Assembly (NCBI RefSeq): GCF_002197845.1
Contig: NZ_NIDE01000004.1
Span: forward strand, 496,001 to 560,000
DNA from: Fimbriiglobus ruber
Lineage (GTDB): Bacteria > Planctomycetota > Planctomycetia > Gemmatales > Gemmataceae
Length of the DNA: 64,000 nt
Direction: 5' to 3'
Shown here: positions 23,060-57,101 of the stretch, piece by piece
Numbering within the stretch: position 1 is the first letter of the stretch
Layout of the letters: each line of letters starts with the position of its first letter
Translations under genes and position numbers: made by a program
The notes under the pieces: generated by a model
What the model was told of the DNA's origin: nothing
What the model saw: the letters and a program-made list of their open reading frames with translations, nothing else
Database searches by the model: none

Positions 23060-25936
23060 ATGTCCCGTTCCCGTTCCGGTGCTTCCCGTTCTTCCCTCGG
23101 TTCCCGCCTCCGCTTCGAACGGCTGGAGGATCGCACGACGCCGACCTCGTTCACCGTCTCGAACACCAACGCTACGGGCGCGGGCAGTCTGCAGGACGCG
23201 ATCGCGCAAGCCGACGCGTCGCCGGGGTCGCCGAACGTGATCACGTTCGCACCCTCCCTCGCCGCCCAGACGATCACGCTGACCACCATCGGGGACACCA
23301 CGGCGGGCCCGGCCGCGTTCGTCATCACCTCGACGATCACGATCGAGGGGAGCGGCCAGATTCTGACCCGCGACACGTCGTCGACCGCCTCGGCGTTCCG
23401 CCTGTTCACCGTGACCGGGTCCGGGAACTTGACGCTCGAAAACCTGTCGCTCGAGAACGGCCTCGCCCAGGGCGGGACCGGCGGCGCCGGCGGCGGCGGC
23501 GCGGCCGGCCTCGGGGGGGCGATCTTCAACCAGGGGACGCTGTCGCTCTTCAACGACACGATCGTCGGCAACCAGGCGATCGGCGGGGCGAACACCGGGG
23601 GGAGTAGCGTCGGGGCCGGGGGCGGTCTCGCCGGGCCCGGCGACGCCCTCGGCAACGGCGGCCAGCCGATGGGCGGGAGCGGGCCCGGCGGGTTCGGCGG
23701 GGGCGGCGGGTCGAGCGCGGCCGGTGCCGGCTCGGCCGGCGGGTTCGGCGGGGGCGGCGGGTTCGGTGGCACCCTCGGCGGGGCCGGCGGGTTCGGCGGC
23801 GGGGCGGCCGGGTCCGCCGGGACGGCCGGCGCGGCCGGGTTCGGGGGCGGGGCCGCGGCCGGGCTGGTCGGCGGGGCCGGGGGCGGCCTCGGCGGCGGCA
23901 TCTTCAACGCCGGCGGGACGATCATCGCGGGCAACACGACCCTGTTCAAGAACACCGCCACCGGCGGGAATGGGACCGGGGCCGGGGGCGGCAGCGCGTA
24001 CGGCGGGGGGATTTTCAACCTGGACGGGCAGGTGACGCTGACGAACGTCTCCCTCGTCGGGAACGTCGTCATCGCCGGGGCCGGCAACACCGGCGGGCAG
24101 ATCGGCGGCGGGGAGTTGTACAACCTGTCCGAGAACGTGGGGACTGCCACCGCCGGACAGGCCGCGACGGCCACGGTGGGGAACAGCCTGTTCGCCCTCA
24201 CCGTCACGACCTCGGACGTCGTGAACCGCCAGATCGACGGCACCGCCACGCTCGCGGCGTCCGGCCCGAACCTGTCGACGTTCGCCGTGGTCAACACGAG
24301 CGGCACCACGACCGGCCCGGCGTTCACCGTCAACACGAACCCGCAACTCGGTCCGATCCAGGACAACGGCGGGATGACGCCGACCGTCGCGCTCCTGGCC
24401 GGCAGCCCGGCCATCGACGCCGGGTCGACCGCCCTGCTGACGTCCGCGAACCTAGGGACCAGCCCGCCGTTCTTCGACCAGCGCGGCCCCGGCTACCTCC
24501 GCGTCTCGAACAGCGCCGTCGACCTGGGCGCGTACGAGTACCAACTGCCGGTGGGGATCGCCCCGGTCTCGTTACCGGGCGGCACCGCCGGCACCGCCTA
24601 CGCGCAAACCATCTCGGCTTACGGGCCGGTCGGGACGTACACGTTCGCCGTCACCTCCGGGGCGCTCCCGACGGGCCTGTCGTTGACGACCAAGGGGGCA
24701 CTGAGCGGCACGCCGACGACGACCGGAACGTACGCGTTCACGATCACGGCGACGGACTCCACGGGCGAGGTCGGCAGCCGGCCGTACTCGGTCGCGATCG
24801 GCGCGGCGGGGGCGGCGGTGCCGCCGACGGTGACCGTGCCGCTCCCCCCGCCCCCGCCGGGCGTCCCGCCGACGCCCGCCCCGCCGCCGACCGCGGGTGC
24901 GCCGTCCCCGGTTCTGGTCGGGTCGACCCAGTTCGCGGTCGGGGCCGACGCGGGCGGGGCCCCGCTCGTCGAGTCGTTCAACGCCAACCAGACCCCGGTC
25001 CTCGGGGCGACGTCCGCGTTCGCGTCGTCGTTCACCGGCGGGGCCCGGGTGGTGGCCGCCGACTTCAGCAACGACGGGGTCGACGATATCGCCGTCGGGA
25101 CCGGACCGGGGGTCGCCAACGAGGTGACCATCCTGGACGGCAAGACGGGGGCCGTGATCACCACCTTCCAGCCGTTCGAGGCGACCTTCACCGGCGGCCT
25201 CTTCGTGGCCGCCGGGGACATCACCGGGGACGGCATCCCGGATCTCATCGTGACCCCCGACCAGACCGGCGGGCCGGTCGTCGCCGTGTACGACGGGTCC
25301 AAGCTCATCCAGGGCCTGGCGTCCGGTCAGCCCAACGGCCAGCCGGCCCAGATCAACCGCTTTTTCGGCATCCAGGACCCGAACTTCCGGGGCGGGGCCC
25401 GGGCCGCGGCCGGGGACATCAACGGGGACGGGGTGGCCGACATCGTGGTCTCGGCCGGGTTCGGCGGCGGTCCCCGGATCGCTGGGTTCGACGGCGTCTC
25501 GGTCGCGTCGGGTGCGGCCGACCCGACCAAGCTGTTCGCCGACTTCTTCGCGTTCGAGCCGTCGCTGACGAACGGGGCGTACGTGGCCGTCGGGGACATC
25601 AACGGGGACGGGCACGCGGACGTAATCGCCGGCGGCGGTCCGGGCGGCGGCCCCCGCGTCACGATCTTTGACGGGGCCGACCTGCTGGCGAACACCCAGA
25701 CGCCGATCGCCGACTTCTTCGCCGGGGACACCAGCAACCGGGGCGGGGTGCGGGTGGCCGTCAAGAATCTGGACGGGAGCGCGAACGCGAGTCTGATCGT
25801 CGGGTCCGGGGCCGGAGCCGGGGCGACGGTCACGGCGTACACCGGGAAGGCGATCCTGGCCAACCCGGCGTCGCCGACCGCGGACTTCTCGCTCGACGCC
25901 TTCCCCGGGTTCACCGGCGGCGTCTTCGTCGGGTAA
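23060..25936 (+). CDS. Giant surface protein: beta-helix, Gly-rich stretch, Ig-like, FG-GAP repeats
   Basis: A 958-residue extracellular protein. The N-terminus is basic with RLRFERLEDRTTP, the planctomycete-type leader motif of secreted giant proteins. Residues ~30-470 resemble a polymorphic right-handed beta-helix (SLQDAIAQADASPGSP; LTLENLSLENG; LFNDTIVGN). This region contains a ~110-residue Gly/Ala-rich insert and ends in AYEYQLP, as in choice-of-anchor Q proteins. A putative Ig (He_PIG) domain follows (GTYTFAVTSGALPTGLSL), then a Pro linker. The C-terminal module has FG-GAP/VCBS-like repeats, each with an ANGDG/DINGDG-type Ca2+ loop (DFSNDGVDDIAVG, DITGDGIPDLIV, DINGDGVADIVV, DINGDGHADVIAG). 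An adhesive or structural surface role is likely. Confidence 0.8.
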   Translation: MSRSRSGASRSSLGSRLRFERLEDRTTPTSFTVSNTNATGAGSLQDAIAQADASPGSPNVITFAPSLAAQTITLTTIGDTTAGPAAFVITSTITIEGSGQILTRDTSSTASAFRLFTVTGSGNLTLENLSLENGLAQGGTGGAGGGGAAGLGGAIFNQGTLSLFNDTIVGNQAIGGANTGGSSVGAGGGLAGPGDALGNGGQPMGGSGPGGFGGGGGSSAAGAGSAGGFGGGGGFGGTLGGAGGFGGGAAGSAGTAGAAGFGGGAAAGLVGGAGGGLGGGIFNAGGTIIAGNTTLFKNTATGGNGTGAGGGSAYGGGIFNLDGQVTLTNVSLVGNVVIAGAGNTGGQIGGGELYNLSENVGTATAGQAATATVGNSLFALTVTTSDVVNRQIDGTATLAASGPNLSTFAVVNTSGTTTGPAFTVNTNPQLGPIQDNGGMTPTVALLAGSPAIDAGSTALLTSANLGTSPPFFDQRGPGYLRVSNSAVDLGAYEYQLPVGIAPVSLPGGTAGTAYAQTISAYGPVGTYTFAVTSGALPTGLSLTTKGALSGTPTTTGTYAFTITATDSTGEVGSRPYSVAIGAAGAAVPPTVTVPLPPPPPGVPPTPAPPPTAGAPSPVLVGSTQFAVGADAGGAPLVESFNANQTPVLGATSAFASSFTGGARVVAADFSNDGVDDIAVGTGPGVANEVTILDGKTGAVITTFQPFEATFTGGLFVAAGDITGDGIPDLIVTPDQTGGPVVAVYDGSKLIQGLASGQPNGQPAQINRFFGIQDPNFRGGARAAAGDINGDGVADIVVSAGFGGGPRIAGFDGVSVASGAADPTKLFADFFAFEPSLTNGAYVAVGDINGDGHADVIAGGGPGGGPRVTIFDGADLLANTQTPIADFFAGDTSNRGGVRVAVKNLDGSANASLIVGSGAGAGATVTAYTGKAILANPASPTADFSLDAFPGFTGGVFVG

Positions 25937-26560: not shown

Positions 26561-29500
26561 ATGATCCGCTCGATAAAAGCCAAGTTGTATCTGAAGCTTT
26601 TCAATAACCCAAACCGGTCGGTTCGCCGACGAGCCCAAACTTCCATTCTTCGTGCAGAACCGCTCGAGGATCGCTGGCAACCGAACGGCACGGCCTTCGA
26701 TTTCGCTCTCGACATCGGCGGGTCGGGCGCCACCGTGACAGATACGATTACGGCCACGGACTCCTCGGGCGACGTTTACGCCACGGGCAATTTTAAGGGG
26801 ACCGTGAAGTTCGACGCCAGCCACTCCCTGACGAGTTCGGGCGGCAAGAACGCCTTCGTGGCCAAGTATTCATCCACTGGGGCCTTTGACTGGGCCGATG
26901 AACTGGGCACCGGCAGCACCGCCACCGGCAGCTCCGGCGATTCAGGTCATGGCTTCGCGATCGCAGTAGACGGCGAAGGCAACGTCTACACCACGGGGGG
27001 ATTTATTGGCACGGGCTCCTTTTCCGGCACCGGCACCGGCGACGACCTGACCTCCGTGACCAAAGACAGCAGCACAAACGCCTACGTCTCGAAACTGAGT
27101 GCTACCGGGGCCTACGTCTGGGCCGTCGCACTGGGCGGTGGCAACAATAGCGACTATGTCGGAGGTCAGGGGATCGCGGTGGACGGATCGGGTGACGTCT
27201 ATACGACGGGTTATCTCTCAGGCACGGGCTCCTTTTCCGGAACTGGGACTGGGGACAATCTCACAGGAGGCGGGACTGGAGAAACGTATGTCTCAAAGTT
27301 GAGCGAAGCTGGCACCTTCATCTGGTCCGTCGTACTAGGGCAGGGGGCTGAGGGCTCCGACGGTTCTGGTATCGCTGTGGACGCGGCCGGAAATGTCTAC
27401 ACCGCGGGTGGATTTACTGGCACGGGTTCTTTTTCCGGGACAGGCAGCGGTAATGATCTGACCTCGTCGGGCATTGGGGCCGCCTTTGTCTCGAAGCTGA
27501 GCCCCAACGGCGCGTTCGTCTGGGTCGATATCTTGAATAGTGGCGGCTATGTCAGTGACACCCTAGACAGTCTCGCCATGGATGGATCGGACAACCTCTA
27601 CATCACGGGTACTTTTTCCGGTACAGCCTCATTTTCTGGTACGAATAGCGGCGACAACCTGTCAACCACTTCTGGTGACTATAACACCTATGTCACGAAG
27701 TTGAACTCCACTGGCGCCTACGTCTGGGCCCGTGATCTCGGCTACGGCGGCGATGCCGAAGGTCTTGGCATCGCGGTGGACGGATCGGGGGACGTCTTCA
27801 CCACAGGCTATTTCGTTGGCACGGGCGCCTTTCCCGGTAACGGCAGCGGCGTCAGTCTGACCTCAGTTGGTGGCGATAACGCTTATGTCGCAAAGCTCAA
27901 CGCCGCCAGCAACTTCGTGTGGACCGACGATCTCGGTAGCGGTAGCAGCACGCTTGCTTACGGCACCGCGGTGGACGGCTCTGGTGATGTCGACATCACG
28001 GGGCATTTCGCTGGCACGGGTTCCTTTTCCGGCACGGGCAGCGGCGACCCGTTGACATCGGTAGGGACCTCGGATGGGTTTATCACCCGATTGACGCAAA
28101 TCGGTCCGGCGGTGACGATGAACTCGTCAAGCCTGCCCGTCGGCTCCGGTACGTTAACCATCGGTGGCGTTGGTTTTGACCCGACCGGGACCAATACCGT
28201 GACGCTATCTTCGGGCGTCGGGACGGTGACGGCAGTGACCGCGACGTCGTTGACCATCACCTTCAGCACGGCACCGGCGCCCGGGCCGTTGACCGTCGTC
28301 GTCACCACCGACAGCGTCAGTGGCACCCCGGTGGAAGTGGCGACGGTTACACAAACACCTGGCCCGACCGTTACCGGGATCAACCCGGGTAGCGGCACCA
28401 CGGCCGGGGGCAGTGTCGTGACCATTCTGGGGAGTGCGTTCACTGGAGCCACGTCCGTCGATTTCGGGTCGACCGCGGCTTCGGCGTACACGGTCGTTTC
28501 GGACACGCAGATCTCGGCGACCAGCCCTGCCGGGGCGGCCGGCCCGGTAGACGTGACGGTGACAACTCCGGCAGGCGGCTCGTCGATTGTACCCGCGGAC
28601 CAGTTCGTGTATACCGCCCCCGTCGTCACGATCTCCCCGGCGACGCTGCCGAACGGCCAGGCCGGAACGACGTACAGCCAGACCCTGACGGCGACCGGGG
28701 CGGCCGGGCCGTTCACCTTTTCGGTGACCGCCGGGACTCTACCGGCCGGGCTGACGCTGACCCCGACCGGGGTTCTGTCGGGGACGACGACGACGGCCGG
28801 GGCGTCTAACTTCACGGTGACCGCGACTGTCGGAACCGCATCCGGCTCCCAGGCGTACACCCTGGATGTCTCACCGGTCAGCCCACCGCCCCCGGTCTCG
28901 CCGCCCCCGGTCTCGCCGCCCCCGGTCGCGCCCCCGCCCGGCATACCGCCGACGGTTCCTCCCGTTTCGCCACCCCCGGTCTCGCCACCACCTCCGGTCT
29001 CACCACCTCCATCTGGAACTTCATCCTCTGTTTTGGTCGGGTCGACCCAGTTCGCGGTCGGGGCCGACGCCGGCGGGGCTCCGCTCGTCGAGTCGTTCAA
29101 CGCCAACCAGACCCCGGTCCTCGGGGCGACGTCCGCGTTCGCGTCGTCGTTCACCGGCGGGGCCCGGGTCGTGGCCGCCGACTTCAGCAACGACGGGGTC
29201 GACGACATCGCCGTCGGGACCGGCCCGGGGGTTGCCAACGAGGTGACCATTCTGGACGGCAAGACGGGGGCCGTGATCACCACCTTCCAGCCGTTCGAGG
29301 CGACCTTCACCGGCGGCCTCTTCGTGGCCGCCGGGGACATCACCGGGGACGGCATCCCGGATCTCATCGTGACCCCCGACCAGACCGGCGGGCCGGTCGT
29401 CGCCGTGTACGACGGGTCCAAGCTCATCCAGGCCTGGCGTCCGGTCAGCCCAACGGCCAGCCGGCCCAGATCAACCGCTTTTTCGGCATCCAGGACCCGA

Positions 29501-30053
29501 ACTTCCGGGGCGGGGCCCGGGCCGCGGCCGGGGACATCAACGGGGACGGGGTGGCCGACATCGTGGTCTCGGCCGGGTTCGGCGGCGGTCCCCGGATCGC
29601 CGGGTTCGACGGCGTCTCGGTCGCGTCGGGTGCGGCCGACCCGACCAAGCTGTTCGCCGACTTCTTCGCGTTCGAGCCGTCGCTGACGAACGGGGCGTAC
29701 GTGGCCGTCGGGACATCAACGGGGACGGGCACGCGGACGTGATCGCCGGCGGCGGGCCGGGCGGCGGCCCGCGGGTCACGATCTTTGACGGGGCCGCCCT
29801 GCTGGCGAACACCCAGACGCCGATCGCCGACTTCTTCGCCGGGGACACCAGCAACCGGGGCGGGGTGCGGGTGGCCGTCAAGAACCTGGACGGGAGCGCG
29901 AACGCGAGTCTGATCGTCGGGTCCGGGGCGGGGGCCGGGGCGACCGTCACGGCGTACACCGGGAAGGCGATCCTGGCCGACCCGGCGTCGCCGACCGCCG
30001 ACTTCTCGCTCGACGCCTTCCCCGGGTTCACCGGCGGCATCTTCGTCGGGTAG
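26561..30053 (+). pseudogene. Second giant surface protein, broken by two 1-nt deletions
   Basis: The first frame starts at 26561 with a basic leader and ILRAEPLEDRWQPNG. It then has many ~55-residue SBBP-type propeller repeats (AIAVDGEGNVYTTG, GIAVDGSGDVYTTG, GTGSFSGTGTGD), an IPT/TIG domain (GPTVTGINPGSGTTAGGSVV), a putative Ig domain and a Pro-rich linker. The C-terminal FG-GAP module is nearly identical to that of the upstream gene. Compared with that copy, one G is missing at 29431-29432 (GGG to GG) and another at 29710-29712 (GGGG to GGG). The protein therefore runs through three frames (to ~29430, ~29430-29710, ~29710-30053). With both bases restored it would end in FTGGIFVG. True decay or homopolymer assembly error is undecided. 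Confidence 0.75.
29030..30053 (+). repeat. 1-kb duplicated FG-GAP module (partner 24911-25936)
   Basis: From GTTTTGGTCGGGTCGACC to the stop, this segment matches 24911-25936 almost base for base. The length is 1024 versus 1026, exactly accounted for by the two missing G residues. The identity starts abruptly after the Pro-rich linkers and includes silent positions. This indicates recent duplication or gene conversion rather than old common descent. Confidence 0.9.
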
Positions 30054-30135: not shown

Positions 30136-30206
30136 GACCGGCTGAAGCCGGGATTCCAACCCCAGAGCTTCTGGTCTCGGCGTTGGAGTCCCGGCTTCAG
30201 CCGGTC
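30136..30206. repeat. 25-bp inverted repeat after surface protein gene
   Basis: Arms at 30136-30160 and 30182-30206 are reverse complements with one mismatch and a 21-nt loop. It lies 83 bases past the stop of the second surface protein. A stable GC-rich transcript hairpin is expected. The sequence reads GACCGGCTGAAGCCGGGA in its core and has a short additional partial copy at ~30210. Confidence 0.8.
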
Positions 30207-30376
30207 CGAGAAAGCCGGTCGATGCCCGACCTCTCGCAGGCGGTTCCGGGATTCCCCGGTGCGCACCGTGATCCGTGATGTGTCGTTGTCGGAATCGCCC
30301 GATTGACCACCGAGCGACGGTTATCCTGTACGTATGTTCGCAAGACGTATGGGACACCACTCGGGTGGGAACCCGA

Positions 30377-30720
30377 CAGCCGCCCGGACGAAATTGGGTT
30401 CGTTTGGTAAAAACCGGTGCCGGGGGACCGCGGGAGACAAATCTCAAACTACGGCCAGACGATCGGGAATTGGATTCGTTTGGTAAAAAACGATGCCCAA
30501 GGACCGCGAACGATCAACCTCAGGCCACGATCAGACGACCGGGAATTGGGTTCGTTTGGTAAAAACCGCTCCGGGGGACCACGGACGACCAAACTCAAGC
30601 CGCGGCCAGACGACCGGGAAATGGGTTCGTTTGGTAAAAACCCGCGCCGGGGAACCGCGGGAACTGGGATCGAGGGTTGTGCCCGGACGGAATTGGGTTC
30701 GTTTGGTTAAAGCCGATGCC
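30377..30720. repeat. Tandem repeat, period ~75 bp, about five copies
   Basis: Five units are anchored by AATTGGGTTCGTTTGGTA-type blocks near 30391, 30468, 30544, 30619 and 30690. Spacings are about 77, 76, 75 and 72 bases. The intervening parts (GACGACCGGG..., CCGGGGGACCGCGG...) are also related between units, so the whole ~75-bp unit is repeated with drift. All frames contain stops or low-complexity translation. No cas gene is present. Confidence 0.85.
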
Positions 30721-30775
30721 CCGATCCCAGCCGTCTGCTACGCGGCCCCGCTGCCGCGGTCCGATTACCGAGACG

Positions 30776-31561
30776 TTAGATCTCGGAATAGGCTGCCGGG
30801 GTGAGAATCAGGTTGGTGATCCGGGACACGATCTCCTTGTCGGCGTAGCCGGGAAGGGCTTTCAGCTTCAGCCACTCGGGGTCGCCCCGGAACCGGTCCC
30901 ACGCCGCCTTCCGCCCACCCTCGTCCGGGAACGCTAGAAGGTACGTCAGGTTCGGCATCGCGGCCCCGACCGTCGCCGAGGCGAAGAGGACGGGCGTGAG
31001 ACCGACCCGGCGGAAGATGGCGAGTTCGCCCTTCTCGAACATCTCGACCTTCTTGGCCGCCGCCCGCTCGTTGTGGCTCTCGTACACCCGCAGGTTCAGC
31101 AACCGTGGCTTCGAGGCGTCCGGCACTTCCAGTCGCGGCATCCCGGGGATCGCCGTCAACAGGGAACTCTCGATCCGCTGATAGACTGGGTCGTCGGCCG
31201 TGGCCGCGAGGTACGCCGCGGCCGCCGTTTTATAGTCGTCGTCCGTCGCGAGCCGGGTCGGGAGGCCCGCGACCGTCTCGGCCGTTCGGTGGACGACGAG
31301 AACATACACCTTGAGCAGGTCGTTTTCCGGCGGCGCGGCGAACACCCCGACCGGGCCGGCCCCGTGCCGCTTGGCGGCCGGGATATACGCCTTGCTCAAG
31401 TAGTCGTCGAGGAGCGGTCGTTTGCCGGGCTTGAGCGTGTAAGTCCGCAACTCGTATAACTCGGGCGCGGCCGCTTTCGGGTCGGCGGCGATCCCTAAAG
31501 CGGGGGCGGCGCAAAGGGACGCGGCGGTGGCTCCGACAAACGTGCGGCGGTCCATGTCCAT
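30776..31561 (-). CDS. NIPSNAP family protein with Tat-like leader
   Basis: A 261-residue protein. The N-terminus MDRRTFVGATAASLCAAPAL is a twin-arginine-like export signal with an RRTF core. The mature part holds two dimeric alpha/beta-barrel modules of the NIPSNAP type. The first begins YELRTYTLKPGKRPLLDDYL, the second is LLNLRVYESHNERAAAKKVE. Planctomycetes carry many such secreted NIPSNAP proteins and their function is unknown. An ATG at 31555 is an alternative start. Confidence 0.85.
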   Translation of the reverse strand: MDMDRRTFVGATAASLCAAPALGIAADPKAAAPELYELRTYTLKPGKRPLLDDYLSKAYIPAAKRHGAGPVGVFAAPPENDLLKVYVLVVHRTAETVAGLPTRLATDDDYKTAAAAYLAATADDPVYQRIESSLLTAIPGMPRLEVPDASKPRLLNLRVYESHNERAAAKKVEMFEKGELAIFRRVGLTPVLFASATVGAAMPNLTYLLAFPDEGGRKAAWDRFRGDPEWLKLKALPGYADKEIVSRITNLILTPAAYSEI

Positions 31562-56889: not shown

Positions 56890-57101
56890 GCGCTCGGCGC
56901 GGGTCTCCGACCCCGCCGTTCGGCCCGACCGCAGGTCTCCCGTCCCAGGGCGCATCCCCATCTGGTCGGTGCCGTGCAGATGGCGTCGGGCGGGGAGACC
57001 TGCGGTCGCCGAACGGCGGGGTCGGAGACCCGCGCCGAGCGCCGGGGCACACTCGGCCGAACGGCGGGGTCGGAGACCCGCGCCGAGCGCCGGGGCACAC
57101 T
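56890..57101. repeat. Nested hairpin with duplicated right arm, flanked by direct repeats
   Basis: The left arm 56890-56924 pairs with 57008-57042 and equally with a tandem copy 57056-57090 (period 48 bp). Inside, CGACCGCAGGTCTCCC pairs with its complement near 56993, and CCATCTG with CAGATGG, so 56890-57042 folds as an almost continuous long hairpin. Near-identical ~27-bp direct repeats (two mismatches) beginning GCGAAATCATGAT / GCGGAATCATGAT flank the element near 56863 and 57108. The arrangement resembles an insertion with a long target duplication, or a recombination product. Confidence 0.8.

Follow-up and report, generated by a model that had tools for sequence, protein, structure and literature searches.

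A 23-bp core shared by dispersed intergenic arrays of Fimbriiglobus ruber is a candidate recognition sequence of a mobile repeat

A five-unit array lies behind a surface-protein gene

The window analysed here is a 64,000-nt stretch of the Fimbriiglobus ruber genome (contig NZ_NIDE01000004.1, positions 496,001 to 560,000), in which a tandem array is flanked on one side by the 3′ end of a surface-protein gene and on the other by a NIPSNAP-family gene on the opposite strand (30776-31561, minus strand), that is, in the convergent gap to which a preliminary description had assigned it. That description had read five units of 75 bp, each with a conserved core of about 20 bp. The five units were recovered: TRF detected the array at 30392-30660 (period 76, 80% matches), and a pattern search allowing up to 3 mismatches found five cores in the window, against an expectation of 0 in shuffled sequence. 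The tandem arrangement stood but a constant period did not, the core-to-core spacing of 76, 76, 75 and 72 bp being neither constant nor always a multiple of 3. Similarly, the block is conserved as described but longer than quoted, spanning 23 bp with sharp edges (AATTGGGTTCGTTTGGTAAAAAC) and extending 3′ past the 16 bp given earlier. Core and remainder are unequally conserved, as had been noted, with 93.5% identity among cores and 69% among spacers (about 54% for shuffled spacers). The fourth spacer belongs to a different module from spacers one to three (Table 1).

Table 1 Features of the array and its flanks in the window
Feature	Position	Strand
U1, conserved block upstream of the cores (GACGGTTATCCTGTACGTA); best-conserved part of the leader preceding many core arrays	30316..30334	+
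Core 1 (AATTGGGTTCGTTTGGTAAAAAC)	30392..30414	+
Spacer, module A	30415..30467	+
Core 2, single G to A change	30468..30490	+
Spacer, module A	30491..30543	+
Core 3	30544..30566	+
Spacer, module A	30567..30618	+
Core 4, AAATGG start	30619..30641	+
Spacer, module B	30642..30690	+
Core 5, 3′ end degenerate (GGTTAAAGC)	30691..30713	+
3′ end module (CCAGCCGTCTGCTACGCGG...); L186 has it downstream of its core as well	30714..30775	+

Other repeats were seen in the window. Two adjacent surface-protein genes are nearly identical over their 3′ kilobase (29024-30053 and 24905-25935), of which dozens more paralogous stretches occur across the genome; relative to its neighbour, the copy preceding the array is short of one G near 29430 and of another near 29709; the resulting shift of frame is either a true frameshift or a sequencing error. 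A 28-bp inverted repeat at 30136-30206 (GACCGGCTGAAGCCGGGATTCCAAC; 93% complementary, 15-nt loop) resembles palindromes at other loci (L151, L317-L319) and thus represents a separate dispersed palindromic repeat. Further along, a perfect 48-bp tandem duplication occupies GC-rich sequence at 57008-57101.

The core is dispersed between genes across the host genome

The genome-wide search proposed in the preliminary description, performed over 12.36 Mb with a 17-bp pattern and up to 2 mismatches, returned 83 core matches, whereas the reversed pattern gave 0, so the core is not confined to this array. The outcome named there as refuting, a core found only here, thus does not hold. In total, we collected about 99 cores in about 45 clusters, present singly or in arrays of 2-5, with spacings mostly of 72-76 bp and a period of about 73 bp, near 7 helical turns. 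Their consensus is AAWTGGGTTCGTTTBGYAAAAAC; information per position falls sharply outside these 23 bp, and at one internal position G, T and C all occur but A hardly ever. As instances were gathered with a 13-bp seed, conservation within that seed is partly built in, while the strongly conserved positions beyond it (AAW before, AAAAA after) are free of seed bias.

Using a simple codon-usage gene caller, 42 of the 45 clusters were intergenic, and the three single matches inside genes look like chance. Cluster orientation relative to the two neighbouring genes was mixed (17 same/same, 9 opposite/opposite, 8 same/opposite and 8 opposite/same), and clusters lay closer to gene 3′ ends than to 5′ ends (median distance 155 bp versus 331 bp; p = 2e-4). 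Proximity to 3′ ends together with mixed orientation agrees better with tolerated insertions than with regulatory sites tied to promoters. These observations bear on the main rival to a mobile repeat, an array of binding sites for a sequence-specific DNA-binding protein (regulatory, nucleoid or partition-like) whose repeats the host keeps for use. A core conserved without RNA structure between variable flanks, phased near 7 helical turns in this genome, is what such a protein might require; however, neither orientation nor distance to genes is fixed.

Elements are mosaics of a leader, cores, spacer modules and end modules

A conserved leader stands ahead of many arrays, on the strand of the first core; its best part is CGGTTATCCTGTNCGTG (U1), and these arrays run into one of a few end modules. 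Between the cores, a few spacer families (A, B, C and D) can be told apart, and arrays combine them differently. For 36 of the 39 units of multi-unit arrays, the closest spacer was found in another array (mean 0.82, versus 0.62 within the own array), which argues that arrays were mostly not built by local slippage. In some element pairs homology stops at core edges, including the 3′ edge of the core. These comparisons indicate that composite elements have been copied as pre-formed units and reshuffled, with breakpoints at cores.

The same evidence bears on a neutral satellite whose similarity is kept by slippage or gene conversion. Although its units are tandem, as expected of a satellite, spacers resemble those of other arrays more than their neighbours and the core is common to unrelated phyla (see below), so that this reading, which we hold to be very improbable, is already contradicted.

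No inverted core pairs were found within elements of the host genome; a near-palindromic head-to-head pair (TTTGCGAAACGAACTCAATTGGGTTCGTTTCGCAAA) was seen in an Acidobacteriaceae genome (L309, around 2020-2060). Two further dispersed sequences were encountered at the loci inspected: a 21-bp motif (GAGWTGTTGGTAATAGACRGG; L316-L320) recurs across the genome without cores and also after several core arrays, and a 46-bp repeat unrelated to the core (L180, 6414-6459) is present in about 30 copies at about 91% identity genome-wide.

One element is missing from the orthologous site of two congeners

At one locus (L189), an 818-aa gene and tatD stand about 490 bp apart, and an element comprising U1 and three cores lies between them. 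The same gene pair is separated by about 25 bp in one congener (G001) and 82 bp in another (G002), both bins containing the locus. Judged from these gaps, both congeners lack the element at the orthologous site, a comparison that was informative at this one locus and in which the insertion junction was not placed to the base. No target-site duplication was definable for the elements. Among the neighbours of cores, we found no consistently nearby transposase, recombinase or reverse transcriptase (RT), and no shared gene families beyond common ones such as kinases.

Group II introns abut the core at a single nucleotide

At three loci (L168, L186 and L193), a group II intron encoded on the opposite strand meets the 5′ edge of the core with its own 5′ end (RF02005, 62-105 bits), the junction falling at the identical nucleotide in each. 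Over 60 bp on the intron side, the three sequences share 54-56 positions; on the other side they share 15-21 (about 16 expected by chance), indicating three different core loci. Given this arrangement, the intron's 5′ exon corresponds to the core read in reverse complement. One of the three introns (L411, 525-4500, host contig C17) is complete: it has domain V (RF00029) and an RT carrying a maturase domain, the RT being split by a serine-recombinase gene (PF00239 plus PF07508).

We considered whether the core is primarily a group II intron homing site (distal 5′ exon, IBS2 and IBS1), the arrays being intron-related. Three introns or intron fragments at one nucleotide, all opposite to the core, and one intron whose RT has a maturase domain agree with this, and the 23 nt that the core offers upstream of the insertion point suit known group II intron targets in length (PMC2882425). 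Against it, introns occur at only 3 of about 45 loci and at no cores in the other genomes sampled, which makes the intron an unlikely driver, and unoccupied targets would not be selected for the intron's benefit. A candidate EBS pairing of GGGTTTGT with ACGAACCC (8 bp, one G-U) in L412 was not kept in L411 and is suggestive only, being by estimate not beyond chance. We regard a homing site as unlikely as the primary role; the intron probably exploits the core rather than accounting for it.

A separate small RNA was noted during this survey. Acido-Lenti-1 RNA was described from Acidobacteria and Lentisphaerae and reported near group II introns. Matches to it (RF01687) were found at L162 6227-6272, L184 7321-7366 and L289 4260-4305, in the host genome and in the core-rich genome G435, with further similar copies at L318 and L274. 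It is likewise a dispersed repeat (46 nt); in contrast to the core it is a structured RNA, and it has no sequence relation to the core and lies kilobases from cores.

RNA, coding and transposase-linked identities do not fit the core

The preliminary description had also offered a structural RNA, which the folding analysis does not support: z-scores were +0.2 for the unit and about 0 for core and flank, and Rfam 15 covariance models run over the region and the core loci gave no match at the cores themselves. Weak matches to miRNA-named Rfam families belong to the separate inverted repeat at 30136-30206. Hairpins around the core were discarded since, in the host genome, flank complementarity equals that of permuted pairs; strong hairpins at a few foreign loci (L101, L084 and L044) did not generalise, and a G-U hairpin within the core (UUGGG-UUCG-UUUGG) is contradicted by the variable positions. 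A related proposal, that the elements are multi-copy non-coding RNA genes with U1 as promoter and the cores as unstructured motifs bound by protein or RNA, would account for the many elements in which U1 stands ahead of the first core in the same orientation. Nevertheless, structure and Rfam matches at cores are wanting, a scan returned no sigma-70-like promoter at U1 and no clear -35 was visible by eye; we consider such genes improbable, slightly more so than a homing site.

A protein-coding repeat was rejected on the spacing of 76, 76, 75 and 72 bp, the intergenic location of the clusters and variable positions that fit no single frame. Linkage to RAYTs was rejected as Y1 transposases do not track cores: the host genome has 3 Y1 genes, none near cores, its sisters have Y1 genes and no cores, and one genome (G432) has cores and no Y1. 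A CRISPR array is contradicted by spacers that recur between loci in a few families, by variation among cores and by spacings of 28-290 bp elsewhere.

The core alone is shared by scattered genomes of several phyla

Under a strict pattern, only one of 392 genomes of the phylum was positive, namely the host genome. A degenerate pattern detected the core in 2 genomes of the 95 examined in the family (64 and 140 copies) and gave 0 in the other 93; the sister species of the second positive genome is without cores. The two congeners (G001 and G002, both incomplete bins) gave no core match genome-wide. In the sample around a Bryobacterales genome (G443), 1 of 247 genomes carried 23 copies and two carried one each, the rest having none.

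Beyond these, a 16-mer scan over all genomes is by itself near chance (about 120 matches expected, by estimate), and only many-copy genomes were accepted. Exact core copies numbered 82 in CAIQCK (AM-2014_bin-0333), 44 in JAJZOL (MAS4.bin79), 9 each in Phycisphaerales UBA7708 and Geminicoccaceae HKST-UBA17, 7 in an Acidobacteriaceae, 6 in a Bryobacterales, 5 in a Gemmataceae and 5 in a Verrucomicrobia genome, counts that give no estimate of frequency because the eight genomes were picked through the core itself. The reversed control gave 0 in all eight. Taxon names are those of the records, mostly metagenome bins. Searches of plasmid, phage and viral sequences yielded only single core matches, at chance level.

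Foreign cores are again intergenic (122 of 127 sampled in seven genomes), with the same variable positions as in the host; their periods range over 28-290 bp and their flanks differ from those of the host. When cores were masked, host elements and other genomes shared only five stretches of 25-32 bp. The feature shared across genomes is the core and not the whole element, and the core appears to be the only part of the element under strong sequence constraint. Selection on the core, as first proposed, is thus upheld by a core that persists across phyla where its flanks do not.

Degenerate positions that are the same across phyla would also suit a DNA-binding protein. On the other hand, congeners and nearly all relatives lack the core, and periods elsewhere are not helically phased. 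Random orientation, patchy presence, the empty site and core-edge introns together fit the recognition site of a mobile element better than a protein-binding array, which we nonetheless keep as the main rival, with a low but appreciable probability that exceeds that of the other rivals.

A putative mobility system acting on the core

Known systems offer partial likenesses. In integrons, attC recombination sites are repeated directly around variable inserts, and group IIC introns target attC at a fixed point in opposite orientation. Core arrays are likewise direct, with variable inserts and fixed-point, opposite introns; however, the core has neither the RYYYAAC/GTTRRRY pair nor an imperfect palindrome, which speaks against an attC array. 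REP/REPIN sequences with their RAYTs (PMC3733652, PMC3116915) are similarly short, high-copy, intergenic, dispersed, clustered and non-autonomous, whereas the core is asymmetric, with no palindrome and no GTAG/CGTC tag, cores within an array point one way, and RAYTs and cores each occur without the other. MITEs and TIMEs (PMC4133298) are also non-coding mobile repeats, in which only the enzyme-recognised ends are common; unlike in them, no terminal inverted repeats were recognised in the present elements, whose shared core is directly repeated or solitary. Prokaryotic satellites (PMC6749651) too are intergenic tandem repeats with dispersed families, but here only the 23-bp core is conserved, and across phyla. 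In our literature search the core string appeared in no relevant context, the seven papers with one of the strings being unrelated to judge by their titles, and such a repeat was not described.

Dispersal, intergenic placement, patchiness, mosaicism, one orthologous site empty in two congeners, a core common to several phyla and three introns at a fixed point are all shown by sequence comparison. The explanation we favour, with somewhat better than even confidence, is a mobile, non-autonomous repeat in which the 23-bp core acts as recognition sequence for a putative, horizontally patchy, trans-acting machinery. The array in the window would then be one copy of a non-coding dispersed repeat, moved or copied as a composite element in the order leader U1, cores and spacers, end module. 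The core would be the site recognised and joined by a trans-acting mobility system whose distribution is patchy and probably horizontal; the constraint on the core would stem from that system, and tandem units may arise via insertion or recombination at cores. A bolder proposal, which we offer only tentatively and think rather doubtful, is an undescribed class of mobile element or a genome-wide DNA-recognition system, built on a single asymmetric 23-bp direct-repeat core, that has reached several phyla by horizontal transfer. It would have neither terminal inverted repeats nor a known enzyme, and the repeats that contain it would be specific to each genome and otherwise unrelated.

Taken together, a few genomes of unrelated phyla hold a near-constant 23-bp word, in as many as about 140 copies each, and otherwise share nothing, which points to a shared recogniser that has apparently never been named. 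Within the family the word is either abundant or absent, a pattern from which comparative genomics should be able to find the partner gene. The group II introns abutting the core show that at least one retroelement uses it as an insertion site. If the core is a transposition or recombination signal, it would represent a kind of mobile repeat that searches for inverted repeats and palindromes have missed.
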